Source: Brevibacillus laterosporus
Lineage (GTDB): Bacteria > Bacillota > Bacilli > Brevibacillales > Brevibacillaceae
Direction: 5' to 3'
NCBI GenBank assembly: GCA_007833815.1
Contig: CP033464.1
Coordinates: 4,086,001 to 4,150,000 of the forward strand
Length of the DNA: 64,000 bases
A program made the position numbers and the translations under genes. The notes below the pieces were generated by a model. That model saw nothing but the letters and a program-made list of their open reading frames with translations. It was not told the DNA's origin and searched no databases. Positions 31,224 through 48,383 of this stretch are shown here, piece after piece (the stretch's first letter is position 1; the number at the start of each line of letters is the position of its first letter).

Positions 31224-31874
31224 TTAATTAATAACATGGCTTAAAAGAATAGTTTTTACTAGGTTTGGCAATAATCTGCTCAAGCCTTTGCGCAGTACTT
31301 TTTCTTCATACTCTTTCGGAAGGTAGTCTCTCTCTTCTTTTAACAAATCCTCGTAAATCCTAACGTTCAAATTCTTTAAAATTATCCCCATATCTTCAAT
31401 ACCAAATTTTTCATCTAGAATTCCTTCATCAACTAGCTTGTACAAGAATTTTTCCACTCTTGCCTGTGTTACATATTGCTCAACAAATAACATCTCTGGA
31501 GTCTTCAACTGATTTGGGTCTTTCGGTGCTTTTTGTTTTTGGACTTCACGAAAACTGTCAGTTACCAGTTTTACAAACAATTGCTTCCCAAAGCGATCCT
31601 TGTAGTCAACATTCTTAACTACAATCCCTTCACCTGTCTCCATTTCATCAAGTAATTCACACTGCCATTTTGAAAATGAATTATATGCTCCATACTTTCG
31701 ACAAGAGCTAATACGTGCGATTACAACTTCACGTTCGAAATTATCAAATCTGTGTACAGTTTGCCAATCATTAAAGCATGTAATCACTTCATTGAGTCTC
31801 TTCCTATTTGTATCCCACCATGAAATTCCTGTGTCTAATTCAATTGTTTCTTGAAGTAATATTTTTCTGCTCAA
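31224..31874 (-). CDS. RNA-ligase-like protein, probably lacking the catalytic N terminus
   Basis: TTG 31874 is chosen because AAAGGAG lies 8 bases upstream. The middle has GEGIVVKNVDYKDRFGKQLF followed by VKLVTDSFREVQKQK. This matches nucleotidyltransferase motifs IV (EGxVxK) and V (KxK-like) of phage RNA ligases, and a helical C-terminal domain follows. The lysine-containing motif I (KxDG), which receives AMP, is not visible in the 216 residues, so the protein may be a truncated ligase or a divergent relative. Expected family role: RNA repair. Function of this form is uncertain. Confidence 0.45.
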   Translation of the reverse strand: MSRKILLQETIELDTGISWWDTNRKRLNEVITCFNDWQTVHRFDNFEREVVIARISSCRKYGAYNSFSKWQCELLDEMETGEGIVVKNVDYKDRFGKQLFVKLVTDSFREVQKQKAPKDPNQLKTPEMLFVEQYVTQARVEKFLYKLVDEGILDEKFGIEDMGIILKNLNVRIYEDLLKEERDYLPKEYEEKVLRKGLSRLLPNLVKTILLSHVIN

Positions 31875-31912
31875 ATGCTGTTCTCCTTTCCTTATAAAAT
31901 TCATGTTTTAAT

Positions 31913-32912: not shown

Positions 32913-33326
32913 CTATTCCTCCAATTCATTCAACTCTGGAAGCCATCCCTTAAATAATTCCTTAAAGCTCATTTTTAAATCTCCAATGTAGATTTCTGGT
33001 TCTTCATTGCCGAATGTAACCTCTAATCCCAGTTGCTTACCTAACTCAATTGCACGTTGTTTTTCTTCATCAGTCACAATATTCTTCCCTCCAACTCTTG
33101 TCATCACAGGATCTGGTTTGTATTCTGAGGTTAATTCCAACAAAGCTCGATAAAGAACATTAACCTTACCTCTAACAGTGTCATTGCTCTCATTGAAATA
33201 ATATATGAAATCAGAAAGTGATTGTTTTGAATCGTAGTAACCATCTTGTCCATGTAGTAAATCATATGCAGCTTCTATATGCTCAAAAGCACTTTCGAGT
33301 TCTTGTTTTACATTTTCGGGTAGCAT
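32913..33326 (-). CDS. Hypothetical acidic phage protein, 137 residues
   Basis: Acidic and helical, starting MLPENVKQELESAFEHIEAA after AGGAGG. The C-terminal half reads GLEVTFGNEEPEIYIGDLKM. No function recognised. Confidence 0.5.
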   Translation of the reverse strand: MLPENVKQELESAFEHIEAAYDLLHGQDGYYDSKQSLSDFIYYFNESNDTVRGKVNVLYRALLELTSEYKPDPVMTRVGGKNIVTDEEKQRAIELGKQLGLEVTFGNEEPEIYIGDLKMSFKELFKGWLPELNELEE

Positions 33327-33395
33327 TTGAATCCCTCCTATCTGATGAAAGCCAGCTTTTATTAGGTTCTTGCTTTAATTATTAAATTTTATTTG

Positions 33396-33611
33396 TCATT
33401 GATTTCTTCTAAACTTAAGTTCTACTACTCTCTCTAGAGGATCACGAAGTTGCCAGTTAACCGCCCCCCATAGAAACTTTCCATTTTCTTGCTCTTGTCT
33501 GAGCTTACTTGGAGAAAGCCAAATGTCATGATAACTAGAATAGAACCACAATCCTTTTTTCTCTGCTTGATCAAATAATGATTGCAAACTTGCTACTATT
33601 TCACTTTCCAT
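33396..33611 (-). CDS. Hypothetical phage protein, 71 residues
   Basis: MESEIVASLQSLFDQAEKKG, then LWFYSSYHDIWLSPSKLRQE and GAVNWQLRDP. The Trp-rich middle with WLSP and a closing LRDPLE is found in small phage proteins of unknown role. Confidence 0.5.
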   Translation of the reverse strand: MESEIVASLQSLFDQAEKKGLWFYSSYHDIWLSPSKLRQEQENGKFLWGAVNWQLRDPLERVVELKFRRNQ

Positions 33612-33648
33612 TTTCTATTCTCCCTTTTAATAAAAAGTGTCTTTTACT

Positions 33649-33831
33649 TTATGATTTTATTTTGTTTAGTTTTTCTTTTATATCTTGAATTTCTTCTTCA
33701 AGCATGCTGCAATCACTGTACGACTCTTTGAGTTTAATTAACTTTGCTTCCTGTCTTCTAATGCCACACTCATACAGTGAAACTAAATCTTTTGTTGACA
33801 TTGGCTCTCCTTCATCCCAAACACTACTCAT
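33649..33831 (-). CDS. Small coiled-coil protein, 60 residues
   Basis: Starts MSSVWDEGEPMSTKDLVSLY; the second half is a heptad-type helix (MLEEEIQDIKEKLNKIKS). A GAGGGGGCATTCA site precedes the ATG. Function unknown. Confidence 0.45.
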   Translation of the reverse strand: MSSVWDEGEPMSTKDLVSLYECGIRRQEAKLIKLKESYSDCSMLEEEIQDIKEKLNKIKS

Positions 33832-33980
33832 TGAATGCCCCCTCTTATAAATAAGATATTTAAATACATATTTTTATTTTATATTACATCTTCTTTTCAG
33901 ACTTGTAAATACCCTTTTAGGAATTAAATAAATTATTTTTGTTTTTATATTCACTTCAACTTCTCAGTCTATGGTATAAA

Positions 33981-34006
33981 TAAACCCCCAGACATTCTGA
34001 GGGCTT
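33981..34006 (-). terminator. Rho-independent terminator of the repressor operon
   Basis: Minus strand: CCCTCAG, short loop, CTGGGGG, then TTTATTTAT. It begins a few bases after the stop of the MrpR-like gene. Confidence 0.75.
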
Positions 34007-34011
34007 CGCTC

Positions 34012-35022
34012 TTATTCACCATATAGTTCTTTAATCCTGTCTAGATTTATATACTCTTTAATCCGATTGTAATTATAATCATACATATTAGCATAATAAG
34101 CTTTGGGTATATTAAATCTTACGCATATTTCTCCGAATTGCTCTTTATCTAAAACTCCATCTCTCTTGTATAACTCATAGCCCATATAGATCATACCTGA
34201 TCTCATTATTTTTAAAGCAGTAAAGTTATGGATTCCAAAATACTCACCCAATGCAGTTAAACGTCTTGAAACAACATGCTTACCTACTGCATCAGTATTG
34301 ACGACTCTAGTCTTAGCTGGCTTCAATACATAGCCTGTTTCCACTAGATCGATACCTTCTCTTATATTACGTGATGTATCTGGTAGTTCATTCCCATTAT
34401 TTTTAAGGTATTCTGCTTCATGATGAGCAGCTTTTAAAAGCTCAATTAATTTATCAGAGACAATCAATTCTCTTTTGGAGCCATCTATATCAGTTAGCAA
34501 AACACTATTATTATTTACGTCTACCTCGTGCCATTTTAGATTTCTTATTTCACAGTTTTCTTTTCCTGCAAAACCCTCAAACAAAGCCAATGGAATAACA
34601 GCATCTTGACGATTTACTGCAAATTGAACAATTTCCTCAATTGTTTTTTTAGAAAAATACTGTTTTGCACTTTCATCAATAAATTGTCTCGCATATCCCT
34701 CGATGCTTTTAACCATCACTAATGGGTTAATATTATTTTCTCTATGCCCATTTTCTATAAACCAGTTTACATAGCTCTGAACAATGCTGATATTGGTTTG
34801 ACTAGCCCATATACTTGAAGGATTTAAGTGGGTGAATAAATCTTCCAAATCACCAACGTTAAAACTTCCTAAGTCTTTTCCTTTTTCTTCCTCGATATCT
34901 TTGCTTGCTTTCAGAATCCTAGAATATGAGTCATATGTTCTAAGGTTACTTGAGTGCTCATCCAAAAAAGCATTTTTTAAGGCTTCATTATAGTAGCCAT
35001 CCTCGTATCGTAAATTAGACAT
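34012..35022 (-). CDS. yopR: MrpR/YopR-like phage lytic-cycle repressor
   Basis: A 336-residue protein with a tyrosine-recombinase-like fold but without its catalytic residues. Seen: an N-terminal core-binding-like domain with LNPSSIWASQTNISIVQSYV and ENNINPLVMVKSI, then FEGFAGKENCEIRNLKWHEV, where recombinases carry the first catalytic Arg. It ends near KIMRSGMIYMGYELYKRDG and RIKELYGE. This layout matches MrpR (YopR), the master repressor of SPbeta-like prophages, so the expected role is keeping lytic genes off by DNA binding. It overlaps the upstream YopQ-like gene by 8 bases, as a coupled pair. A terminator follows. Confidence 0.75.
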   Translation of the reverse strand: MSNLRYEDGYYNEALKNAFLDEHSSNLRTYDSYSRILKASKDIEEEKGKDLGSFNVGDLEDLFTHLNPSSIWASQTNISIVQSYVNWFIENGHRENNINPLVMVKSIEGYARQFIDESAKQYFSKKTIEEIVQFAVNRQDAVIPLALFEGFAGKENCEIRNLKWHEVDVNNNSVLLTDIDGSKRELIVSDKLIELLKAAHHEAEYLKNNGNELPDTSRNIREGIDLVETGYVLKPAKTRVVNTDAVGKHVVSRRLTALGEYFGIHNFTALKIMRSGMIYMGYELYKRDGVLDKEQFGEICVRFNIPKAYYANMYDYNYNRIKEYINLDRIKELYGE

Positions 35023-36415
35023 TGTTTATCTCCTCTTTAACATCCAATTTTTTAAAAAAGTTTATTATTTTACTCTTAGGCTTGGTCATCATCGAACTGT
35101 TATTGTCCAATACTCCTATTTCTTTCCACAGTGGATTGCTACGTGAAAAATCAATCTTGTCTATGAGCGTTGTGATATGACTTGGAGGCAACTCCACATT
35201 CTTCAATTCCTTAGCTAGAATCACATACGCATTGAACATTTGATTGTGGTTAATGATCGTTTCTTTTCTAGTTTTACCAATGTTAGTTACAAATTCTTCA
35301 GGATATCGCATCGCAATTGAATCAAAAGTTTCTTTTAGAAGACCTACAACCTCTTTTGCTTCAATGATGTTTGATGGATGGAACACTTCATCTATAATTG
35401 AATCTAAAACAGTGAAAGTTACTAACTGATCAGTTGAAAGCTGATCACCTGAAGATATCTTGTCTCCAAGCATGCTTTCTTCTCTAAGTTGTTTAACAAC
35501 ATATGAGGAATGGCTTTGACGCATTTCTGCCAACCTTGACACACTTTGACTGGTGAATGTATTAATTTGAGAGAACAGGCTCTGTGCTTTTTTCTGACTG
35601 TAATTAACGATCCTTAATCCGAACGTCATCTTAATATCAGGGTTTGTTTTTATGGCATTGATTGTAGCAGTTAACCTATGAAAACCGTCCAGACAGTCTA
35701 ACTTTGTACCTTCGGTGACGGTTAATGTTTTATTCTTCGTGTCAAAAATTAATTCTTGTCCCGAATCAGAGGAGTTTAATCTAGCATTAAATGTGATTGT
35801 TGTTCTAAACAATTTGTCTTCAAGAATTAATTGAGTGATTTCCTTTACCGCTTTGCTATTTAACTTAGGAGCTTTTATTATACCGGTTGCTACTTTCAAT
35901 AATTTAGCTTCCCTTTGAGTGTCAAAATTGTATTGAATGACATTTCCTTCACTCAATTTGAGAAGCTGCTCTGCATCAATTGATGTATCATAATCATCTA
36001 ACTCAAACTGCTTCGCATCAGAAAAAGTATATGGTAGCAACTCCTCATTCTCTGTGGAAAGCTCCATTAAATTTATTTCATTAATCTCATGTTGTGTAAA
36101 ATAATTTTCAGCAGCTATCTTATTTTTTAAGTCTTGTCCTTCTAGGAAATCTCTGATGTGAATAAGGAATAGACATAATACACTATTTTCTACTTTATTT
36201 AGAGGTGTTTTCCCATTAATAATGCGTTGAGAATCTGCTAACCCTACTCCGTGTGCAGATAACTGTTTTTTGAAGGAGTTTACTGTCTTCCTACTGGTCT
36301 TAATTTCAATTAAGGCTTGAGACAACACTTCCTCAACCATATCTCTAGTTACGCCAACTTGCATCCGATCAGCCTCTTTCGGGAAATTAATATAATAATA
36401 ATTAATTGTAGACAT
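35015..36415 (-). CDS. YopQ-like protein with a DGQHR-type (DndB/ParB-like) core
   Basis: 466 residues, close to the length of SPbeta YopQ, and placed just upstream of the YopR-like repressor as in SPbeta. Near residue 240 it has KLDCLDGFHRLTATINAI, a DGQHR-type motif (DGFHR) seen in DndB-like and ParB-like DNA-associated proteins. Downstream are SQKKAQSLFSQINTFTSQSV and a helical C-terminal half. The biochemical role is unknown. Co-translation with the repressor suggests it acts in the same lysogeny switch. No transport signal or membrane segment. Confidence 0.65.
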   Translation of the reverse strand: MSTINYYYINFPKEADRMQVGVTRDMVEEVLSQALIEIKTSRKTVNSFKKQLSAHGVGLADSQRIINGKTPLNKVENSVLCLFLIHIRDFLEGQDLKNKIAAENYFTQHEINEINLMELSTENEELLPYTFSDAKQFELDDYDTSIDAEQLLKLSEGNVIQYNFDTQREAKLLKVATGIIKAPKLNSKAVKEITQLILEDKLFRTTITFNARLNSSDSGQELIFDTKNKTLTVTEGTKLDCLDGFHRLTATINAIKTNPDIKMTFGLRIVNYSQKKAQSLFSQINTFTSQSVSRLAEMRQSHSSYVVKQLREESMLGDKISSGDQLSTDQLVTFTVLDSIIDEVFHPSNIIEAKEVVGLLKETFDSIAMRYPEEFVTNIGKTRKETIINHNQMFNAYVILAKELKNVELPPSHITTLIDKIDFSRSNPLWKEIGVLDNNSSMMTKPKSKIINFFKKLDVKEEINNV

Positions 36416-36458
36416 TTTTATTTCTATTATACAGTTTAATAGGGTGATCTGACAACAA

Positions 36459-36488
36459 AAATTGACCCCTCAAGAAAGGAGTCAATTT
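36459..36488 (-). terminator. Rho-independent terminator
   Basis: Minus strand AAATTGACTCCTT / GAGGGGTCAATTT arms (one mismatch) followed by TTTGTTG. It overlaps the last codons of the gene starting at 36876 and separates it from the YopQ-like gene. Confidence 0.75.
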
Positions 36489-36876
36489 ATCCAAGTGATA
36501 TTTGATGAAAGAACTTTAAAACAATGTGTTTGTTTTTTAAATTCTAATTCAAGAAACTCACAGTCCATATTTAAATCTGAAAGCATCCAGTATGCACAGG
36601 TGACAGGACTTTCCCCGTCAATCTCTTCTGAATCTCCTAGCGCCATACGAACATTCATATGTATCTCATAGTGCATGACTTCATCAATTTCTTCCTCTGC
36701 TTCGAAAGTTACCTTTGTCACATCTAACTTAATATCTGTGCCACTGGTTGTACCCACTAGGATTTGCTGATTTAATATTGAACCGCAAACATCAAAATCA
36801 GAGTTGTCAATTTCAAATGAAAAAATACCATTTGCAAAAACTATTTTTTTGTATAGTTTTCTAGATAAACTAACAT
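36482..36876 (-). CDS. Hypothetical protein with an apparent -1 frameshift at a seven-A run
   Basis: GAGAGGAG lies 9 bases before ATG 36876, which opens MLVYLENYTKK and stops at TAG 36841. The seven A bases just before that stop (complement of 36844-36850) allow a -1 shift. In that frame the DNA continues IVFANGIFSFEIDNSDFDVC ... VTKVTFEAEEEIDEVMHYEI to the end at 36482, giving about 131 residues. Without the shift, the best start in the long frame is GTG 36757, with no ribosome site. It could be programmed frameshifting, a mutation or a sequencing error. Function unknown; the protein is beta-rich and acidic. Confidence 0.5.
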
Positions 36877-36879
36877 TTC

Positions 36880-37145
36880 AATAAATACTCCTCTCGTTTA
36901 CCATTGTCGAGAATGAAAGTTCGTTCTTTTGTATTTTTATAATCTGATTTTTCACTTCTCAATTTTTTGTTTTGTTTGGTACGTTTACTGTTGTTATTAT
37001 TTTTTTATTACTATTTACATTTAAACACAGTTCCAAAAGAAATAAAATATAAGTAAAATGGAATTGTTGCGACAATATTCGACAATATCTACAACAAAAA
37101 AAACCTCCCAAAGACATTGAGAGGTTTTAAGATACTTATGTAATT
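36880..37145. other. AT-rich spacer between the peptide gene and the next unit
   Basis: Contains the terminator at 37095-37129 and a short tandem GACAATAT (37073-37089) upstream of it. No ORF is convincing. By analogy with arbitrium loci this is where a regulated downstream transcript could begin, but no promoter is clear. Confidence 0.4.
37095..37129 (-). terminator. Rho-independent terminator of the receptor-peptide operon
   Basis: Minus strand AAAACCTC / GAGGTTTT arms with further pairing at the top and an eight-T tail, 17 bases after the peptide gene stop. Confidence 0.85.
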
Positions 37146-37265
37146 CTAAGGTCGTTCTCCTGCGTCCATTAATGCTACTGGGCGTTCTCCTGCGTCTGCA
37201 CTAGCCACTGATGCCATTGATACAAGGCATAACACTGCAAACATTGAAAGTAATAACTTCTTCAT
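37146..37265 (-). CDS. Secreted signalling peptide precursor with duplicated DAGERP
   Basis: A 39-residue gene missed by length filters. ATG 37265 lies behind AAAGGAGGTGAT, a near-perfect anti-16S match that begins at the stop codon of the receptor gene. The product has a signal peptide (MKKLLLSMFAVLCLVSM...ASA) followed by DAGERPVALMDAGERP. The same hexapeptide therefore sits directly after the predicted signal-peptidase site and at the extreme C terminus, where AimP-type precursors carry the mature signal. The gene order receptor then peptide, the size, the signal peptide and the C-terminal hexapeptide all fit the AimP/Alo/Phr class. Expected role: exported, trimmed, re-imported and bound by the receptor. 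The exact mature form is inferred. Confidence 0.75.
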   Translation of the reverse strand: MKKLLLSMFAVLCLVSMASVASADAGERPVALMDAGERP

Positions 37266-37279
37266 AGAATCACCTCCTT

Positions 37280-38608
37280 TCATCGTTTCTTATATAAGTC
37301 ATACAGCTTGTTTTTCTGTTCTTTATTTGCATATTCAATATTTTGACTTAATAAAGCGACCAACTCACCAAACTCTGGTGTCAGATCGAGATTTATTGCT
37401 ATCTCTGCCGCTTCTAATATCCTGTTTATCCCTTTATCGTACATATCATTTTGTATATGTATTAACCCCTCTGCCCTTTTAAACTTCATAATCTTAAAAG
37501 CAAGATGAGTTTTATCATCCTTATCTAAGTTTAAATGCTGATTGCATTTTTCAATCAGTTTTAATGCTGGATCTAATTGGCTTGTTTCCGAGTATTTTTC
37601 AAGCACTATTGCGAGTGTGGACTCTCTAGTTGGTGAAGGATTCTTCAATGCAATTTCAATAAGCTCATCAGCCTTGGTCATATCTCCAAGATGTATGTGC
37701 GTTATTAATTGGTTTATTTTAGCTTGTTCTTCAAAAAGATCAATATTTTTATACTCATTAATAACTTCTAAAGCTTTATTGAACCTGTGAAGCCCATTGA
37801 GGGCAAACCCTTTTGAAACTAAGGAAAAGCCAAATTTATCTTCGTTTTTTCCTTTCGCCAAATTTTCTAGCGCAACTGATGATTCATATAACTTGTCCCA
37901 GTTATAATACATCTTATAGTAAGCACAAGCTCGTTCATAAGCAACTAATTGCTCATCCTCTGGCATAAATCGTATAAAGTTTTTCATTAAGACAAATCGT
38001 TCATGTACTTGCTGTGGATCAAATCTGAGTAAGTAAAAAATTCTCAGATAGCAAACTGCTAACTGTGGAGAAAAGCTTTTTTCTTTTTCTGAAATAAGCT
38101 GGTATAGATAAAGTGCGTGAGTGTATTCTGGTTGATTGTAGTTTACAGTGCTTGGATCATAAGGATACTTTACTTCTGCGTGAGAAAAAATTTCTTCAGC
38201 TAGATCAAAGATCACTTTTGTATTTTTCTCATTGATAACTTCTTCAATTAACTCTGACACAATACTATACAGCGAAATGTCTAAACATCTCTTAATAAAG
38301 TCCTTCGTTTTCCCTTCGATAAATGTACCACTTTCATTTTTCTTTGTTTTTCTTCTCAGTTCACCTAAAAACCAAGGATAAAAGTATCCTTCTGGCAGCT
38401 TTAGAATAGAGGTAATGGAATCAATCATTTCTACATTAAACTTTCTATCTACCGAATCACTGGGTTTTAGAATTCGTGTTAATGTGGTTACATTATCTAT
38501 TCCTAACAGTTCAGCTAATTTATTTAATTTTAAACCTTGAGATTTTCGCTTAATATTAATCTCTTGTCTAAGGTGCACTTGCAATTCCTGATATTCAGAA
38601 TAAATCAT
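37280..38608 (-). CDS. AimR/Alo-like RRNPP receptor: HTH plus TPR
   Basis: 442 residues with ATG 38608 after TGGAGGTAA. Residues about 14-75 are a helix-turn-helix (KSQGLKLNKLAELLGIDNVT, then TRILKPSD). Residues about 130-440 are helical repeats of the TPR kind (for example ALYLYQLISEKEKSFSPQLA, ERACAYYKMYYNWDKLYESS). The next gene, 14 bases on, encodes a secreted peptide, which places it among RRNPP peptide receptors. It is longer than SPbeta AimR (386 residues) and closer in size to the AimR-like Alo receptors of Paenibacillus. Expected role: binds a target promoter, with peptide binding changing DNA affinity; in arbitrium this tips lysis against lysogeny. A good promoter lies upstream and a terminator after the peptide gene. 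Confidence 0.75.
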   Translation of the reverse strand: MIYSEYQELQVHLRQEINIKRKSQGLKLNKLAELLGIDNVTTLTRILKPSDSVDRKFNVEMIDSITSILKLPEGYFYPWFLGELRRKTKKNESGTFIEGKTKDFIKRCLDISLYSIVSELIEEVINEKNTKVIFDLAEEIFSHAEVKYPYDPSTVNYNQPEYTHALYLYQLISEKEKSFSPQLAVCYLRIFYLLRFDPQQVHERFVLMKNFIRFMPEDEQLVAYERACAYYKMYYNWDKLYESSVALENLAKGKNEDKFGFSLVSKGFALNGLHRFNKALEVINEYKNIDLFEEQAKINQLITHIHLGDMTKADELIEIALKNPSPTRESTLAIVLEKYSETSQLDPALKLIEKCNQHLNLDKDDKTHLAFKIMKFKRAEGLIHIQNDMYDKGINRILEAAEIAINLDLTPEFGELVALLSQNIEYANKEQKNKLYDLYKKR

Positions 38609-38646
38609 AAAATTACCTCCACAGCCAATTAATTCCCCACACCTTC

Positions 38647-38675
38647 ATTATAACACACTTTGTTATTTAATACAA
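38647..38675 (-). promoter_or_regulatory. Promoter of the receptor-peptide operon
   Basis: Minus strand TTGTAT, 17 bases, TATAAT, ending 39 bases before the receptor ATG. The -10 is a perfect consensus and the spacing is optimal for sigma-A. Confidence 0.7.
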
Positions 38676-38737
38676 ATTTTTATTTTATATAATGATATAT
38701 TTTTCTATGTATGCCATTAAATTGAACAGTCACTATC

Positions 38738-38772
38738 CAAAAACCGACTACCCCTATTAGTAAGAGTAGTCG
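38738..38772 (-). terminator. Terminator overlapping the end of the zinc-ribbon gene
   Basis: Minus strand CGACTAC / GTAGTCG arms with the gene's TAA stop in the loop, followed by GTTTTTGG. Confidence 0.7.
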
Positions 38773-39362
38773 CAATAATCACCTGCTCTATAAAAATTTC
38801 CATGTGAATCTCTATTGGGAAATCCCTCTTTATGAGCTGACTTAATTGGCATCTTACTTCCACAAGCATGACACCACGTTTCGGTCGAATTGCTATAAAT
38901 GTAATGAACTCCCTTATTCATACAAATTGGACATTCGTATCTTAATTTATATCTTTTTTTTCCATTAGAATCTTCCTTAATTCCTGTTGTTTGATAATCT
39001 GAAACCTGTACAACATTATCAGGAACAGTGTCCGTTTGAGTGTCTCGATCCCCCTGATTCTCTGGAGATTTATGAATCTCTTGAAGTCCTTCAATCATTT
39101 GCTCTCGAATTTCTTCATTGTTAATTTGCTGCTTCTCTTCTACCTGCTCTTCTTCTTGCTTCATATTGTCAAAGAAATGACTATAAGCCTTACCTATTTT
39201 TTCAAACTCTTTTACTGTTTTCAAAATATCTTTATCAATACCAAATATGTTAAACACATTTTGAACGATAACCAATTTTGAAAGACTATCAGTTTCTTGT
39301 AACTCTAATTCAGCTTCTTTACCCTTATCATCTTTAATGGAAATTTTAACTATTAATGACAT
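38757..39362 (-). CDS. Phage protein with C-terminal zinc ribbon, 201 residues
   Basis: The N-terminal 60 residues are strand-rich (MSLIVKISIKDDKGKEAELE). An acidic, Gln/Glu-rich linker follows (EEEQVEEKQQINNEEIREQM). The C terminus has YECPICMNKGVHYIYSNSTE and TWCHACGSKMPIK, two CxxC pairs that make a zinc ribbon. Such proteins occur in the early regions of many phages; a nucleic-acid or protein-binding role is likely but unproven. Confidence 0.6.
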   Translation of the reverse strand: MSLIVKISIKDDKGKEAELELQETDSLSKLVIVQNVFNIFGIDKDILKTVKEFEKIGKAYSHFFDNMKQEEEQVEEKQQINNEEIREQMIEGLQEIHKSPENQGDRDTQTDTVPDNVVQVSDYQTTGIKEDSNGKKRYKLRYECPICMNKGVHYIYSNSTETWCHACGSKMPIKSAHKEGFPNRDSHGNFYRAGDYCDYSY

Positions 39363-39453
39363 TTTATAATCACCTCACCCAGATGATTATAAGTAAAATA
39401 ATAGTGCAAGGCAATAAGAAAAGCATGCTGTATAATTATTCTATTTTTTGGCT

Positions 39454-39738
39454 TTACCCATTAATAGACTTATGAATCTGGTGTAAGATTAGCTGAACTT
39501 CTTCATCAGTACCTTCAAGCGTGTCAAAACCATTCAGATTGTCTGAAGAATAACTACATGAATTACAATCAAAAAATACTCTAATTTCTGGATAGGGTAA
39601 TGCTCTGTTTCTTATATTATACTTAATTTGTTTAATTCCTTTTCCTTTCATTTTCCAATCAAAAGAAATACTATCTGCGTAAATTGCTTCAACATGAATC
39701 TTTGTATCGTCACTATTACATTTTGGACATCTAATCAA
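39454..39738 (-). CDS. Zinc-ribbon protein, 94 residues
   Basis: MIRCPKCNSDDTKIHVEAIY at the N terminus and VFFDCNSCSYSS in the middle give paired CxxC groups for zinc. The C terminus is acidic and helical. Start after GGAGGGGAACC. Function unknown. Confidence 0.6.
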   Translation of the reverse strand: MIRCPKCNSDDTKIHVEAIYADSISFDWKMKGKGIKQIKYNIRNRALPYPEIRVFFDCNSCSYSSDNLNGFDTLEGTDEEVQLILHQIHKSING

Positions 39739-39768
39739 AGGTTCCCCTCCAATAAAAACAGTATTTCA

Positions 39769-40062
39769 TCAGCTATTTTCTATCCAGTACCCTTCTTCTT
39801 TCAGTTTGGCAATTAACCACTCTACACCTTTCTTTCCGCAAATCATTGCAACTACAGCATCTTTTGAATTTGTAACTTCGCTCCATTCCATAAGGAGATC
39901 CATTTTAGGAGTTACATTGTTATTTTCAAGTTTACTGATACTACTTCTAGATATAAATAGCAATTCTGCTAACTTCTCTTGGCTCAATCCCGCCCTTTTT
40001 CGGCATGCAGCCATAATTGAGCCAATATATTTTTCAATATCCGAAATTGATGTAAAGTCCAT
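39769..40062 (-). CDS. XRE-family transcriptional regulator, 97 residues
   Basis: ATG 40062 is chosen because AGGGGGA lies 8 bases upstream; the longer frame would overlap the neighbouring pseudogene. Residues about 18-70 are a Cro/C1-type helix-turn-helix (RKRAGLSQEKLAELLFISRS, SISKLENN). The C-terminal helix may dimerise. Likely phage or prophage regulator. A zinc-metallopeptidase gene lies close upstream, a pairing that recalls ImmR-ImmA switches, though it is not the canonical order. Confidence 0.75.
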   Translation of the reverse strand: MDFTSISDIEKYIGSIMAACRKRAGLSQEKLAELLFISRSSISKLENNNVTPKMDLLMEWSEVTNSKDAVVAMICGKKGVEWLIAKLKEEGYWIENS

Positions 40063-43256: not shown

Positions 43257-44814
43257 GAATCAATTTCATAAAGGCTTTTTCCAAAAATAATTAGACTATC
43301 CCTACGGGATTAATGCTGTTTTTTTGAAAAAATTAAGCTGCTACTTTCATCCTACTTGCCAGTTCCTACGAATTCGATCCACTGCTAACTTGGATGCATT
43401 ATAAACAAGAGTAACCAAGTCAAAATGGACTTTTGCCCTCTTTCCTGTGCGATATCGGACATTGTTTAGCTGAAAGAACTCCTTCAAATAAGCATGTACT
43501 CGCTCTACGGCTGTTCTCTGGTCATATAGTTCTTCCCACGTTTTTGTTCCTCTGGCTGGCGCGGTGTACTTTCGAAGATCGGTTTCAGCCTTAATTTTAT
43601 AGACTTTTTGACAGAGAGAATCCTGATTCAATGGACAGTCTTTACATTCTTTTGGCCGTACAAATTTCAACGTTTTGTACTTCTTATCATAACTGTCGTA
43701 ACGATAAGAGCATTCTCGGACACAAGTTGGCGCAAAATGTGAATCGAATCCAACCATTTCTCCTTCATTCCGCTTGTTGTAAGCAATAATCGCTTGTGCG
43801 TTCATTCGTCCGATTTGTTGATAGATCGGGACATAGTCATATCCCGCATCCATGATTGCATATCGCATGTGATTGGGAAGGACAGTTTGAATTCCTTTCA
43901 ACAAAGGAATCGCTGCTTTCCCATCGTTCATACTTCCAGAGGACATGAGGGAGCAAAGAATATATTGACTTTTCGTACTGACTGCAAGATGAGCTTTGTA
44001 TCCAAACCAAAACATGTTCTTTCCATCACTATTTTTCTTTATTCCCCAAGCAGGTTTGATAGGAACTTGGTACCGTAGGTCCTCCAACGTCACATCCAGT
44101 TGAGCTGCAATGGTTTTTTCATATAAGGACTTCTGGGCTTCCTTTTCTTGCTTTTGCTTGTCGTAGATATCTTTTTCTGCTTTTGATTTACGTCCACGTT
44201 TTTTCAATTCTGGTTTCGTCTTTTTTTCTTTTGCCACACCTCGATCACGGGATTCAAAATGGGTTGCATCGATGGCAATTGCTTCATCGCCTATGAACCC
44301 TTCCTGTATCGCTTGCAACAGTAACTTGTCTTGGACTTTATTGAGGTGTGCTGTTTCAGAAAGCTTCTGAACGAGACGAGAGTACGATGCCTCGGAAGGA
44401 AGATTGTCAGAAAACAGAAAACCGCATTCCATTCGAAAGATAAAGTCATGTTTTAGTCGTTTTCGTAAATCTTTCACAGTGGGAATTCGTTCTACGATTC
44501 GAGCGACCAGAGAATATAGCATGGCAGCATAATTCAACTCGGTAGGAGCACCATAGATCGACTTTTTGGAAATAGAGAAAAGAAGCGGTTCAATGTCAAG
44601 AGTGGAGAAAATAGCCTCAAAACGTTTGGGAGGTTCTAAGTCGAATAATTCCTGTATATCAAATAGGCTTCCTTGTTTTATAATAGACATTGGGAGTCAC
44701 CACCACCTCTTAAGTTTGGGTCGCACTTAACTTATTAGAGATTTGGGGAGGTACTCCTTTTTCTATGCTCAAAAACTCTTGGGCCCGTAGGGCTCTGATT
44801 TATGAAATTGATTC
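43257..44814 (-). mobile_element. Intact 1558-bp insertion sequence (IS1182-like DDE type)
   Basis: Bounded by 16-base perfect inverted repeats (GAATCAATTTCATAAA) and flanked by a 4-base AATT duplication. It carries one full-length transposase. A second, degenerate copy lies at 20135-21648. The sharp ends and exact duplication show simple transposition into a phage gene. The family name is inferred from the transposase layout and length. Confidence 0.9.
43347..44690 (-). CDS. Intact DDE transposase, 447 residues
   Basis: The N-terminal DUF772-like region has FRMECGFLFSDNLPSEASYS. The catalytic triad is visible as Asp in IAIDATHFES, Asp in AIMDAGYDY and Glu in DQRTAVERVHAYLKE. A basic insert (KKRGRKSKAEK) and a Cys pair (CKDCPLNQDSLC) lie between. 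This is the usual layout of IS1182-type enzymes. The full reading frame suggests it is active and could mobilise the degenerate copy too. Confidence 0.9.
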   Translation of the reverse strand: MSIIKQGSLFDIQELFDLEPPKRFEAIFSTLDIEPLLFSISKKSIYGAPTELNYAAMLYSLVARIVERIPTVKDLRKRLKHDFIFRMECGFLFSDNLPSEASYSRLVQKLSETAHLNKVQDKLLLQAIQEGFIGDEAIAIDATHFESRDRGVAKEKKTKPELKKRGRKSKAEKDIYDKQKQEKEAQKSLYEKTIAAQLDVTLEDLRYQVPIKPAWGIKKNSDGKNMFWFGYKAHLAVSTKSQYILCSLMSSGSMNDGKAAIPLLKGIQTVLPNHMRYAIMDAGYDYVPIYQQIGRMNAQAIIAYNKRNEGEMVGFDSHFAPTCVRECSYRYDSYDKKYKTLKFVRPKECKDCPLNQDSLCQKVYKIKAETDLRKYTAPARGTKTWEELYDQRTAVERVHAYLKEFFQLNNVRYRTGKRAKVHFDLVTLVYNASKLAVDRIRRNWQVG

Positions 44815-44818
44815 AATT
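44815..44818. repeat. Target-site duplication, right copy (AATT)
   Basis: Matches the AATT at 43253-43256 on the other side of the IS. Confidence 0.85.
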
Positions 44819-44972
44819 CCCTTAGTTGTTTAATATTCAAATCCATCTATATCCTCTCCTTTTAATGTGATGAAAACCATCTTTTATTCTACTCTACAAG
44901 ATTGCCCGCAGCTTATGTTTGCTCCTCTTAAATTTCAGCTATGCACTCAGGTAAATCATTTAAATAGACTAT

Positions 44973-45024
44973 AATAAATAGAGGATAGATAGTTTAGTAT
45001 GATACTATTTATTCTCTATTTATT
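44973..45024. repeat. 11-base inverted repeat upstream of tnpA
   Basis: AATAAATAGAG at 44973-44983 and CTCTATTTATT at 45014-45024 pair perfectly across 30 bases. It lies about 110 bases before tnpA and may be a recombinase-binding or regulatory site at the element's left end. Confidence 0.5.
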
Positions 45025-45133
45025 ACATAATAGAAACATTAATCAGACAAAACAAAAAAGGTATTGTTAGTATAACATGTATTTGATAATTAGATCGTTT
45101 CAAGATCCATGCCAATAGGAGGTTGCGAATCAA

Positions 45134-46273
45134 ATGAGAGTTCAGGAAGTATTATTAGAGAACAATCAAAGGCGGTATATGTTATTAGACGACAATGGAA
45201 ATCCGGTTTTATCTGCTTTGAAATACCTCAAATACCTTGATTCATCCAATAAAAGTCGGAATACACAGAAGACATATTGCTATGCCTTGAAACATTTCTT
45301 CGAATTTTTGAATGATGTAAAAATAGATTTCAAAGAAATTAATGTCAGTGACCTCTCAGATTTTGTAGGTTGGTTAAGGAATCCTTACGAAAGTAGCAAA
45401 GTTACTCCTATTAAGAAGGTTAGATCTTTAAGATGTGAAACTACTGTAAATCTTATCATTACTGCTGTTACAAATTTTTATGATTATTTATATAGGTATC
45501 AACAAATCGATACTGACTTGGCGAATAAATTAATGAAAAAAGTATCTACCAATCGTTCAAGATATAAAGATTTTCTGTACCACGTTAATAAAGATAAACC
45601 ATCCAATAAGAACATATTGAAAGTAAAAGTACATAGAAAAAAGGTTCGGATTTTATCAAAAGAAGAAGTTGAGAAAATATATCAAGCAACAAATAATATA
45701 CGCGATAAGCTGCTAATACGATTACTTTTCGAAACTGGATTAAGAATTGGCGAAGCTTTATCGTTGTTCATCGAAGACTTCATTTATGACCACAAAAATG
45801 GGCATCGGATTCGACTAATGGATCGTGGTGAACTCCCTAATGGTGCTGAACTGAAAACTGGTGAACGTACTATCTTTGTTTCACAAGATTTGATGAATAT
45901 TTTTGATGATTATATGTATGAAATACTCGACGAACTTGAGGTTGATACTAATTTTGTATTTGTAAAGTTAAAAGGTAAACGGATTGGACAAGCTCTGGAG
46001 TATCAAGATATTAGTGCCTTGATGAAGCGGTTAAAAGCAAAAACAGGTATCGATGTCCATGCGCATCTTCTTCGACATACTCATGCTACCTTTTATTACA
46101 GACAGACCAAAGACATTAAGCAAGTACAGGAACGACTAGGACATTCAAACATACAAACCACACTAAACATGTATGTTCATCCATCCGAAGAAGACATCCG
46201 TGAAAATTGGGAGATAGCCCAGTCAGCATTCCAAGTTGGGAGAAAAATCGAGGAGGTTGAAGAACTTGGTTGA
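45134..46273 (+). CDS. tnpA: Tn554-type transposase A (tyrosine recombinase)
   Basis: 379 residues; GGAGG lies 10 bases before the ATG. The N-terminal SAM-like domain is followed by a catalytic domain with Arg in ETGLRIGEALSL, HLLRHTHATFYY (HxxR), LGHSNIQTT (His) and the nucleophile in NMYVH. Size and neighbours match Tn554 TnpA. With TnpB and TnpC it catalyses site-specific insertion of Tn554-family elements. Confidence 0.88.
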   Translation: MRVQEVLLENNQRRYMLLDDNGNPVLSALKYLKYLDSSNKSRNTQKTYCYALKHFFEFLNDVKIDFKEINVSDLSDFVGWLRNPYESSKVTPIKKVRSLRCETTVNLIITAVTNFYDYLYRYQQIDTDLANKLMKKVSTNRSRYKDFLYHVNKDKPSNKNILKVKVHRKKVRILSKEEVEKIYQATNNIRDKLLIRLLFETGLRIGEALSLFIEDFIYDHKNGHRIRLMDRGELPNGAELKTGERTIFVSQDLMNIFDDYMYEILDELEVDTNFVFVKLKGKRIGQALEYQDISALMKRLKAKTGIDVHAHLLRHTHATFYYRQTKDIKQVQERLGHSNIQTTLNMYVHPSEEDIRENWEIAQSAFQVGRKIEEVEELG

Positions 46274-48383
46274 AGTTATTTCCCAGAATCATAAACAAAT
46301 GAATCATTTGGATCATGTTATAGATAGCTTATCTTCATATTCAAGAAAAACTGTAACAGAAGATGGTAAAATCATATTTGATACTGTTTATGATGATTAT
46401 TTTTTAACGAACAACAAATGGTATATAAATTACCTTGGAAAGATCCCGAATTTTGAGGTGCAATTTAAAAGTTATAAAGGAAAGGAAAGAAATGTTCCCT
46501 TTTTAGTCAATAGTTTTCCTGTGAATCTAGAACTGAAGTTTGTCTTCTATCAAATGCTGTTTACTGATAAGTGGGAACTGAAGAATACTTTTTCTGGCCA
46601 AGCTCAATCCCTTAGAAGATTGACACAGTTTCTGAATGAAAAATATAAGTCTCTCTCCAGTCTACTCCACTTGGATATTGAAAAAACTCAAAGTGAATGG
46701 GTGTTATGGTTAAAAAGTATCGGAATCAAAACAGAAATATCCAAAACTTATAGACGAAATGGTCGCACTTACCCCGCATATGCACCAGAGGTTTACTTTC
46801 TTAGAACTATTTACAATGCTCTTAATAATCTTACTGATCAGCGAGAAGAATGGGAAAAGGATAAGTGGGATATCCGAATTCTAAATCAAAGGTACAATTT
46901 AGGATTTAATCCGTCGACTAACCAATACTTTTTGGATTTTTCAGGGATTAATAATAGATATGTTAGAATGCAACTCAAAAAGTATTTTAAACAACGACTA
47001 TTGGGAAGAAGAAATTTTACTTGGGGTACAGCAATCTCTAAATTATCCTATCTAGTTAAGTTTTTAAATTATATATTCGTACTTGAGCCTGCATGGAATG
47101 ATTTAAAGCACCTCTCTAGAAAACATATAGAAAAATTCATTGAATGGCTCCATGAATATGTGAATAGCAATCCATATAAACGGATTAAAAATCCTGAAAG
47201 ATTTATCAAACATTCACTGGATCTCGTACAAGGGTTTTTAGAAGACCTTCGAAGGTTTGAGTACGCAATTGCACCCGAAATGAATACTAGGATTCTTATT
47301 TTTCCTAAGGATAAACCTAATCAACCCAAAAAATCTTTTGACCAAATAGACTATATTCCTGATTATGTATTACAACAAGTTTTTGAAAATATTAATTTAC
47401 TGCACTCTCAGGTTCAACCTGTATTTTGGGTGGCTTTTAAGACTGGGCTTCGAATCTCAGATGTTTTAGGTTTAACACAATACTGCTTAGTTAAGCTAAA
47501 TGAAAAATATCAAATCGTTACTGACATAGAAAAAACCTATTGTAAAGGACACAGCATTCCGATTGATGAGGAATTAGCAAACATTATTGCAGTCTTAATT
47601 AAGACATCAATAGAGAGTTCAAACGATGACAACAACCCTGAAAAATACATATTTGTTCGCTATCGTGGGTCTCGTAAAGGTCAACCATACGGCCAAAGTT
47701 GGATTCGGGATAAACTAAATGAACTTGCGCTCCAGTGTAACATCACAGATGAAAGCGGAATGAGGTTCCACTTTAAGACCCACCAATTTCGACATACGTT
47801 CGCAGTTAAGATGTTAAACAGCGGTGCTGACATTTTAACTGTTCAAGAATTATTGGCACATTCTTCTCCAGAAATGACGATGAGATACGCACGTTTATTA
47901 GACGATACAAAACGAAAAGCATTTGAAACCGCGGTAAAACAAGGGATTTTCAGTTTTGACATAGAAGGTAAGATTCTTGAGATAGGCATTTATGGTGATC
48001 CTGATACAAATGTATTAGATATTCTATGGCGTGATCATAAACTGACCGCTATAGATAACCCCTATGGCTCATGCCATGCTAGGCTAAACGGGAATTGCCC
48101 TTATTCGGAAGAACCACCATGTCTAACATGTAACAGTGGAAAACCATGTAAGGACTTAGCCGTAGGTCTCTCTGATATGGATATAGCCAAATATGAAATT
48201 CATATTCAATCAACATCTAAAATGATTGAAATTGCTCAACAATATGGGCGTGAAGAAATTGCAAATAAAAATAAAAAGAATTTAAATAGGTTACAAGGCA
48301 TATACAACACAATTAAACAAGGCAACATCATCTTCGGACAGCTAGATCGTGTTAAGCGAAAGCAAGGGGTGTCAAATGTCTAA
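46266..48383 (+). CDS. tnpB: Tn554-type transposase B (tyrosine recombinase)
   Basis: Start chosen at TTG 46266, behind GGAGG within the end of tnpA and overlapping it by 8 bases; the longer frame from 46236 has no ribosome site. About 705 residues. Catalytic residues: Arg in KTGLRISDVLGL, HQFRHTFAVKML (HxxR), LAHSSPEMTM (His) and Tyr in RYARLLDD. The C terminus has a Cys cluster (SCHARLNGNCPYSEEPPCLT), likely zinc-binding and typical of this family. Confidence 0.88.
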   Translation: MVEVISQNHKQMNHLDHVIDSLSSYSRKTVTEDGKIIFDTVYDDYFLTNNKWYINYLGKIPNFEVQFKSYKGKERNVPFLVNSFPVNLELKFVFYQMLFTDKWELKNTFSGQAQSLRRLTQFLNEKYKSLSSLLHLDIEKTQSEWVLWLKSIGIKTEISKTYRRNGRTYPAYAPEVYFLRTIYNALNNLTDQREEWEKDKWDIRILNQRYNLGFNPSTNQYFLDFSGINNRYVRMQLKKYFKQRLLGRRNFTWGTAISKLSYLVKFLNYIFVLEPAWNDLKHLSRKHIEKFIEWLHEYVNSNPYKRIKNPERFIKHSLDLVQGFLEDLRRFEYAIAPEMNTRILIFPKDKPNQPKKSFDQIDYIPDYVLQQVFENINLLHSQVQPVFWVAFKTGLRISDVLGLTQYCLVKLNEKYQIVTDIEKTYCKGHSIPIDEELANIIAVLIKTSIESSNDDNNPEKYIFVRYRGSRKGQPYGQSWIRDKLNELALQCNITDESGMRFHFKTHQFRHTFAVKMLNSGADILTVQELLAHSSPEMTMRYARLLDDTKRKAFETAVKQGIFSFDIEGKILEIGIYGDPDTNVLDILWRDHKLTAIDNPYGSCHARLNGNCPYSEEPPCLTCNSGKPCKDLAVGLSDMDIAKYEIHIQSTSKMIEIAQQYGREEIANKNKKNLNRLQGIYNTIKQGNIIFGQLDRVKRKQGVSNV

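Follow-up and report, generated by a model that had tools for sequence, protein, structure and literature searches.

A receptor gene and a short precursor carrying one hexapeptide twice at the arbitrium position of a Brevibacillus laterosporus prophage

Results

A receptor and a small precursor gene in the window

The DNA analysed here, called the window throughout, is a stretch of 64,000 nucleotides from Brevibacillus laterosporus (contig CP033464.1, positions 4,086,001 to 4,150,000). On its minus strand a receptor gene is followed by a small gene whose product has the architecture MKK...ASA / DAGERP-VALM-DAGERP (Table 1). The observations of the original prediction were all reproduced: the receptor, a gap of 14 bases, a gene of 39 codons with its ribosome site, a signal peptide ending in ASA and the hexapeptide DAGERP present twice. 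The Sec-type signal peptide is predicted, as judged by eye and by hydrophobicity, and its ASA end fits the -3,-1 rule for signal peptidase. A small adjacent gene with a predicted signal peptide of this type is characteristic of RRNPP receptor-propeptide pairs. An in-frame ATG at 37283, upstream of the assigned precursor start, would give a protein of 45 residues. In a related locus on a viral contig, L028, a stop codon lies just ahead of the inner ATG, and the 39-codon form is therefore the sole possibility there. Terminator-like stems set the receptor-precursor pair off (3 found in the search against 1.2 expected by shuffling), and promoter-like sites showed no excess (17 found, 16.8 expected).

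Table 1. Features of the locus, in the direction of the minus strand (positions are those of the window)
Feature	Position	Strand	Basis
201-aa phage gene, with homologues ahead of this locus in L028, L030, L124, L125 and L139	38757..39362	minus	
Terminator-like stem-loop, upstream of receptor gene	38745..38772	minus	
Receptor gene, 442 aa, HTH and TPR-like superhelix	37280..38608	minus	ORF call, profile comparison, AlphaFold2 model
Ribosome site AGGAGGTGAT, before precursor ATG	37269..37278	minus	
Signal precursor gene, 39 aa, MKKLLLSMFAVLCLVSMASVASADAGERPVALMDAGERP	37146..37265	minus	ORF call; mature part identical in L028
Signal peptide codons, ending in ASA	37197..37265	minus	fit to the -3,-1 rule
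Hexapeptide copy 1, DAGERP, right behind the predicted signal-peptidase site	37179..37196	minus	
Linker VALM between the DAGERP copies	37167..37178	minus	
Hexapeptide copy 2, DAGERP, the precursor C terminus	37149..37166	minus	
Terminator-like stem-loop, after precursor	37100..37128	minus	
Conserved noncoding block (borders approximate), aimX position	36990..37095	minus	
91-aa ORF with a shorter N terminus than the 131-aa forms of L028 and L030	36482..36757	minus	
Terminator-like stem-loop, after the 91-aa ORF	36459..36488	minus	
Promoter-like site TTGTCA-18-TATAAT (11/12), before the YopQ homologue	36426..36455	minus	
YopQ homologue, DndB/DGQHR-like, 33% to SPbeta YopQ	35015..36415	minus	
MrpR homologue, SPbeta master repressor family, both Pfam MrpR domains	34012..35022	minus	

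Relationship of the receptor to known families

Pfam gave no match for the window receptor itself. An HTH was detected with a profile built from its relatives, which aligns with Xre-type HTH chains over profile positions 12-72 and similar (C.BclI, E 1.7e-4), and the AlphaFold2 model (mean pLDDT 88.9) is nearly all helical and TPR-like, a fold match that is unspecific in that unrelated TPR proteins score equally high. An N-terminal HTH with a C-terminal TPR-type domain is the architecture of RRNPP receptors, and the window receptor has it.

Comparison with the AimR and Alo families, which the original prediction had proposed, separated the two: AimR models failed while homology to AloR-type receptors was detectable. 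The models Pfam PF22871 and NCBIfam NF038310 match the AimR proteins of SPbeta and phi3T and leave the window receptor without a match, and hhalign against two AimRs returned probabilities of 0.3% and 0.1%, so that AimR membership was rejected. The lack of AimR among the sequence matches of the PDB search is no evidence for a different fold. AloR-type receptors of Paenibacillus are homologous to the window receptor (tblastn E down to 2e-16, about 20-29% identity). A tree of 76 receptors split into two clans of 38 rows each with support of 100/100, and the window receptor fell outside the Paenibacillus AloR-type clan, a label taken from species and a published profile search that possibly counts Brevibacillus rows of both clans and given to rows that include no experimentally tested AloR. 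The plasmid receptor of P. polymyxa ATCC 842 was placed in the other clan than the window receptor. These comparisons support the receptor being a non-AimR relative of AloR-type receptors.

The pair occupies the arbitrium position

Beyond the precursor, the window carries a terminator, the conserved block, a short ORF, YopQ and MrpR. The arbitrium loci of SPbeta and phi3T share this order; SPbeta has yopK(aimR)-yopL(aimP)-stem loop-yopM,N,O,P-yopQ-yopR(mrpR), and phi3T is alike with AimX between. MrpR is described as the master repressor of SPbeta, with aimR, yopP, yopQ and mrpR among the core genes of SPbeta-like phages (PMC10516654). Because this gene order is matched together with homologues of YopQ and MrpR, the pair occupies the arbitrium position. 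The adjacent MrpR and YopQ homologues represent an SPbeta-like lysis-lysogeny module, and the receptor-peptide pair lies upstream of yopQ-mrpR as AimR does in SPbeta and phi3T. This position, the AloR-type kinship and the missing AimR match together favor the original proposal of a divergent arbitrium- or Alo-like switch of this prophage.

We searched 40 genomes of the order for Pfam MrpR_C_cat (E up to 1e-8), which was found at 17 places in 11 genomes. YopQ is adjacent at 6 of the 17, and L028 brings the number of YopQ-MrpR pairs to seven. In five of them (the window, L030, L028, G039 and G019) the same contig carries a receptor with its precursor at a distance of no more than about 2 kb, and in G025 a receptor is probably linked to YopQ-MrpR across a contig break. 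The seventh pair, in G001, is without a receptor; there, 190 bases separate the homologue of the 201-aa upstream gene from that of the downstream ORF. In G039 the order is YopQ-MrpR-receptor-precursor, while G019 has two ORFs between precursor and YopQ and a YopQ match that runs over one stop. At the 11 MrpR places lacking YopQ, no full-length receptor was found in stretches of 6.7 to 19 kb (one weak match of 66 aa). Outside the family, none of seven YopQ-MrpR pairs had a receptor in stretches of 14-15 kb (one weak match of 81 aa), nor did any of four other phages (E3, Sundance, KKP_3916 and Perkons) have such a receptor nearby. Thus, YopQ-MrpR does not need a receptor of this kind.

Two observations were made alongside. 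At L139:7396-11061 the upstream gene, the ORF, YopQ and MrpR are present without receptor and precursor, a natural empty site. Additionally, MrpR-like proteins of two sizes (318 and 346 aa; L130, L133, L134) are found together, without YopQ, in some genomes of the family (G007, G017).

A phage-borne system of the Alo kind could act on the host, for example on sporulation, and merely be carried beside lysogeny genes. Published examples include Alo systems with a Spo0E-like gene behind them and phage systems located next to sporulation regulators (PMC7425212, PMC10075063). Brevibacillus phage SecTim467 encodes a receptor of the AloR type next to a Spo0E-like gene (L222:5610-7433), where the next ORF after the receptor (45 aa) shows no signal peptide. 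However, no host regulator occurs among the neighbours scanned here, and receptors of two subclades are associated with YopQ-MrpR; we regard a host-directed role as very unlikely.

The region between precursor and YopQ

The conserved block contains the direct repeat CGACAATAT twice and a promoter-like pair at 37075-37046, the number of such sites being no better than chance. Over about 100 bases, seven overlapping segments of 30 bases are identical between the window and L028 at 22-28 positions, of which some is expected because the block is AT-rich by composition. Identity at fourfold sites is 37/67 in MrpR, 46/96 in YopQ and 51/86 in the receptor. No recognisable AimX was found in the window locus, and the small ORF that the window has in this block is interrupted by a stop in L028. 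Judged by its sequence, the block is the best candidate for the operator, the promoter and an aimX-like transcript.

The SPbeta-type operator ATCACT-25-AGTGAT has no match in the window, a result that excludes only the SPbeta type because AimR of phi3T uses another operator. Sites resembling TTGTCGNAACAA show no enrichment across the window, with 30 found against 25.5 expected, and the intergenic region holds short repeats and no convincing operator. The 91-aa ORF further downstream looks broken in the window copy. A PHROG search with its 131-aa counterpart gave a best E of 0.061 for the L028 form and no match for the L139 form.

Precursors with the same hexapeptide at both ends

The L028 receptor is 85% identical to that of the window, and both hexapeptides are unchanged. 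Between the two precursors, all six changes in the mature part are silent, and the signal peptide differs at five amino acids. L030 is a second copy of the locus in the same genome (C4:4450000-4468000), 97% identical over window positions 33324-39771 and encoding the same peptide. Absence of the peptide ORF from homologous loci, or loss of the hexapeptides there, had been named as grounds for abandoning the original prediction; the ORF is present and both copies are identical in L028 and in L030. As separate observations, the L028 receptor frame is split into two overlapping ORFs (L028:6001-7345), through a real change or a sequencing error, and the two related prophages of one genome (window and L030) would share one signal.

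When the part of the window precursor beyond residue 20 was shuffled, none of 2000 trials gave a repeat of six near the C terminus. This result and the recurrence in further lineages rule out a chance repeat. A recent DNA duplication is likewise ruled out, as the copies differ at 2 to 5 of their 6 codons in every case.

To survey recurrence, signal-peptide-like ORFs downstream of 124 distinct receptor ORFs were listed, which gave 88 receptors with a candidate and 81 distinct precursors; the finder returned no candidate for the other 36. Eight of the 88 candidates score low and are probably not real (five in the first set, three in the second). The first set comprises 68 receptors with 40 distinct precursors, and the second (L143-L200) comprises 56 receptors with 41, after the receptors of L143, L144 and L193 were dropped as identical to first-set ones. 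An exact C-terminal repeat of six was found in seven distinct precursors from six lineages, all in the clan of the window receptor and all among the 40 of the first set. The repeated words are DAGERP (the window, with L030, and L028), SSGDRG (L029), NVGEHG (L020), HGGIGW (phage Emery gp61), EDGPGW (L049, plasmid NZ_CP085877) and DIGERG (L053). In every case the repeat is exactly six residues long and copy 1 follows A-x-A or V-x-A, a predicted signal-peptidase site. The residue preceding copy 2 is M, L, Y, F, N or Y across the six lineages.

Comparison of the two copies within each precursor showed differences at 22 of 42 codons and 23 bases, every one of them silent (seven precursors, with L030 omitted as identical to the window). 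If changes were unconstrained the probability of this would be about 6e-15. Collection of the two-ended cases for exact identity biases the count of silent differences upward, and the window and L028 are not independent. Because these codons differ and do so only silently, both hexapeptide copies appear from their sequences to be under selection, and the original suggestion of two signal copies per precursor is favored over a single one.

Precursors that bear on a C-terminal signal alone were also found in this clan. In two minimal precursors (L124:8514-8627 and L125:9184-9297) the signal peptide leads directly into one C-terminal hexapeptide, DDGERG and NDGERG respectively; this hexapeptide abuts the signal peptide and is also the C terminus, so that cleavage by signal peptidase might suffice to release it. 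Copy 1 of the two-ended precursors could accordingly be a relic of such a minimal form, with only the C-terminal copy serving as the signal, as in AimP, Phr and AloP. The absence of an exact terminal repeat of six from all 41 distinct second-set precursors (L143-L200) is also consistent with this. A relic should drift, however, and the copies are equal in six lineages in spite of the silently changed codons, a comparison to which the selection bias noted above applies. We therefore consider a C-terminal signal alone unlikely.

A further reading takes the whole 16-mer as a bivalent ligand bridging the two subunits of a dimeric receptor. One chain does present two identical ends, and AimR is reported to act as a dimer with one peptide per subunit (PMC9232636). 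The linkers between the copies, however, measure 4, 8, 14, 14, 15 and 20 residues and are dissimilar across lineages, which makes a bridging role highly improbable.

Partial repeats (at least three residues, near the C terminus) visible to the finder comprised, besides the exact cases, DNGA in two precursors and GGS in one. In the related group L003/L009/L010/L011 the copies differ by one residue (DNGAKP/DNGARP) and extra C-terminal residues follow; this degenerate group was excluded from the exact count. For L011 the finder picked the wrong ORF although a precursor of the DNGAKP type exists.

Phage setting of the two-ended loci

The DAGERP and SSGDRG loci adjoin YopQ-MrpR, and all six two-ended lineages lie beside phage-type genes. 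Further genes of the window match phage families. At the SSGDRG locus (L127), neither of the two further neighbours scanned had a PHROG match, and YopQ-MrpR is the sole phage sign. The HGGIGW locus is in phage Emery, and the plasmid that bears the EDGPGW locus (44.6 kb) also carries genes for terminase, portal and capsid. The NVGEHG locus lies among antirepressor, helicase, primase and polymerase genes and also occurs in an IMG/VR contig; the DIGERG locus lies among RecE-like, FtsK-like, DnaB-like and antirepressor genes, its IMG/VR match being probably the same contig (G026:C41). The DNGAKP group looks chromosomal; the two L031 neighbours scanned gave an esterase/lipase match and a weak DNA-binding match.

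Searches of viral contigs returned one locus for query P0001, one each for the NVGEHG and DIGERG receptors, and none for query A1 or for the YopQ protein. Query A2 found the locus of P0001 and, among the matches listed, seven AloR-type loci. In genome contigs, A2 returned 50 loci and P0001 alone returned none.

Discussion

What is established for the locus in the window is its sequence, gene order, conservation, kinship and the silent-only differences between the copies. On this basis we consider it probable that the pair is an arbitrium-type switch between lysis and lysogeny of the phage, built on a non-AimR receptor of an AloR-related clan, with both hexapeptides being the same active signal. 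By analogy with Phr and arbitrium systems, from which we infer secretion, processing, import, binding, DNA target and the effect on lysogeny, the precursor would be exported by Sec and cut by signal peptidase after ASA, exposing copy 1. A secreted protease cutting after VALM would free copy 2, and trimming would free copy 1. DAGERP would then be imported, bind the TPR domain of the receptor and switch it. The DNA site of the receptor is expected close to the conserved block beyond the precursor, where receptor binding would control a transcript from the aimX position and, through that transcript, the MrpR repressor.

The locus resembles the arbitrium of SPbeta and phi3T in its position before YopQ and MrpR, the length of the hexapeptide, the terminator after the precursor and the HTH-TPR architecture; the gap between receptor and precursor is 13 bases in SPbeta, 14 in the window and 30 in phi3T. 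Unlike arbitrium, it has no YopP between precursor and YopQ, its receptor is unmatched by AimR models, and its peptide is present in two copies and is not of the RGA type, whereas AimP of SPbeta and phi3T has one C-terminal copy away from the signal sequence. Similar to the window, AloR-AloP of Paenibacillus combines a homologous receptor with a small secreted precursor behind it (predicted here), but the receptor belongs to the other clan and the 41 distinct precursors of the second set are without a terminal repeat. A Paenibacillaceae receptor cluster, found also in phages and on a Brevibacillus laterosporus plasmid, has been predicted (PMC10075063). Compared by description only, cluster 8 of RRNPP_detector is possibly the clan of the window receptor; the portion of that report describing the cluster mentions neither an arbitrium position nor a two-ended precursor, in which it differs from the window (PMC10075063).

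Doubled pheromones as such are already known. They are described in Phr and NprX (PMC5199041), and up to six copies are reported in precursors of AimR, NprR, PlcR and Rap systems, prophages included, in a survey that sought them only among unusually long precursors (PMC9765709). Compared with the repeated Phr, NprX and AimP precursors, those of the window type are short and hold two copies and no more, which form the two ends of the mature chain, with different words in six lineages. Our search of the open-licence literature in PubMed Central found no report of this locus, of its arbitrium position or of a recurrent two-ended short precursor.

By structure, AloR, subfamily 08 and AimR have been assigned to one clan, and a receptor shared with Paenibacillaceae has been proposed as the ancestor of AimR (PMC12700828). 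Tentatively, and as a possibility we rate a little short of even, Brevibacillus phages may hold a second arbitrium, in which the AloR-related clan was recruited into, or is ancestral in, the SPbeta-like arbitrium position and several unrelated phages, often with a short precursor whose first signal copy is laid bare by signal peptidase and whose second is bounded by the stop codon, each secreted chain yielding two identical hexapeptides whose copies coevolve with the receptor. Such loci would be living intermediates for the proposed descent of AimR. If so, arbitrium-type decisions in SPbeta-like phages would be independent of AimR, with another receptor clan serving in the same place, and this proposed ancestry of AimR would become directly testable (PMC12700828). 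Because two-ended precursors mark the mature signal by sequence alone, at exactly six residues with both borders fixed, such signals can be read off genomes.

The findings raise the question of why doubling occurs in some phage systems of this clan but is missing from other phage systems and from the Paenibacillus ones examined. Doubling is not a rule for phages of this clan: the receptors of L051 and L052 are linked to YopQ-MrpR and have single-copy precursors. No doubled precursor was found at the AloR-type loci in IMG/VR contigs (L194-L200; seven among the matches listed). Elsewhere in the window, positions 31224-31904 encode a protein with a PHROG match to RNA ligase (phrog_548), and positions 43347-48383 hold a gene for a DDE transposase and, behind it on the opposite strand, two integrase-like genes in tandem.
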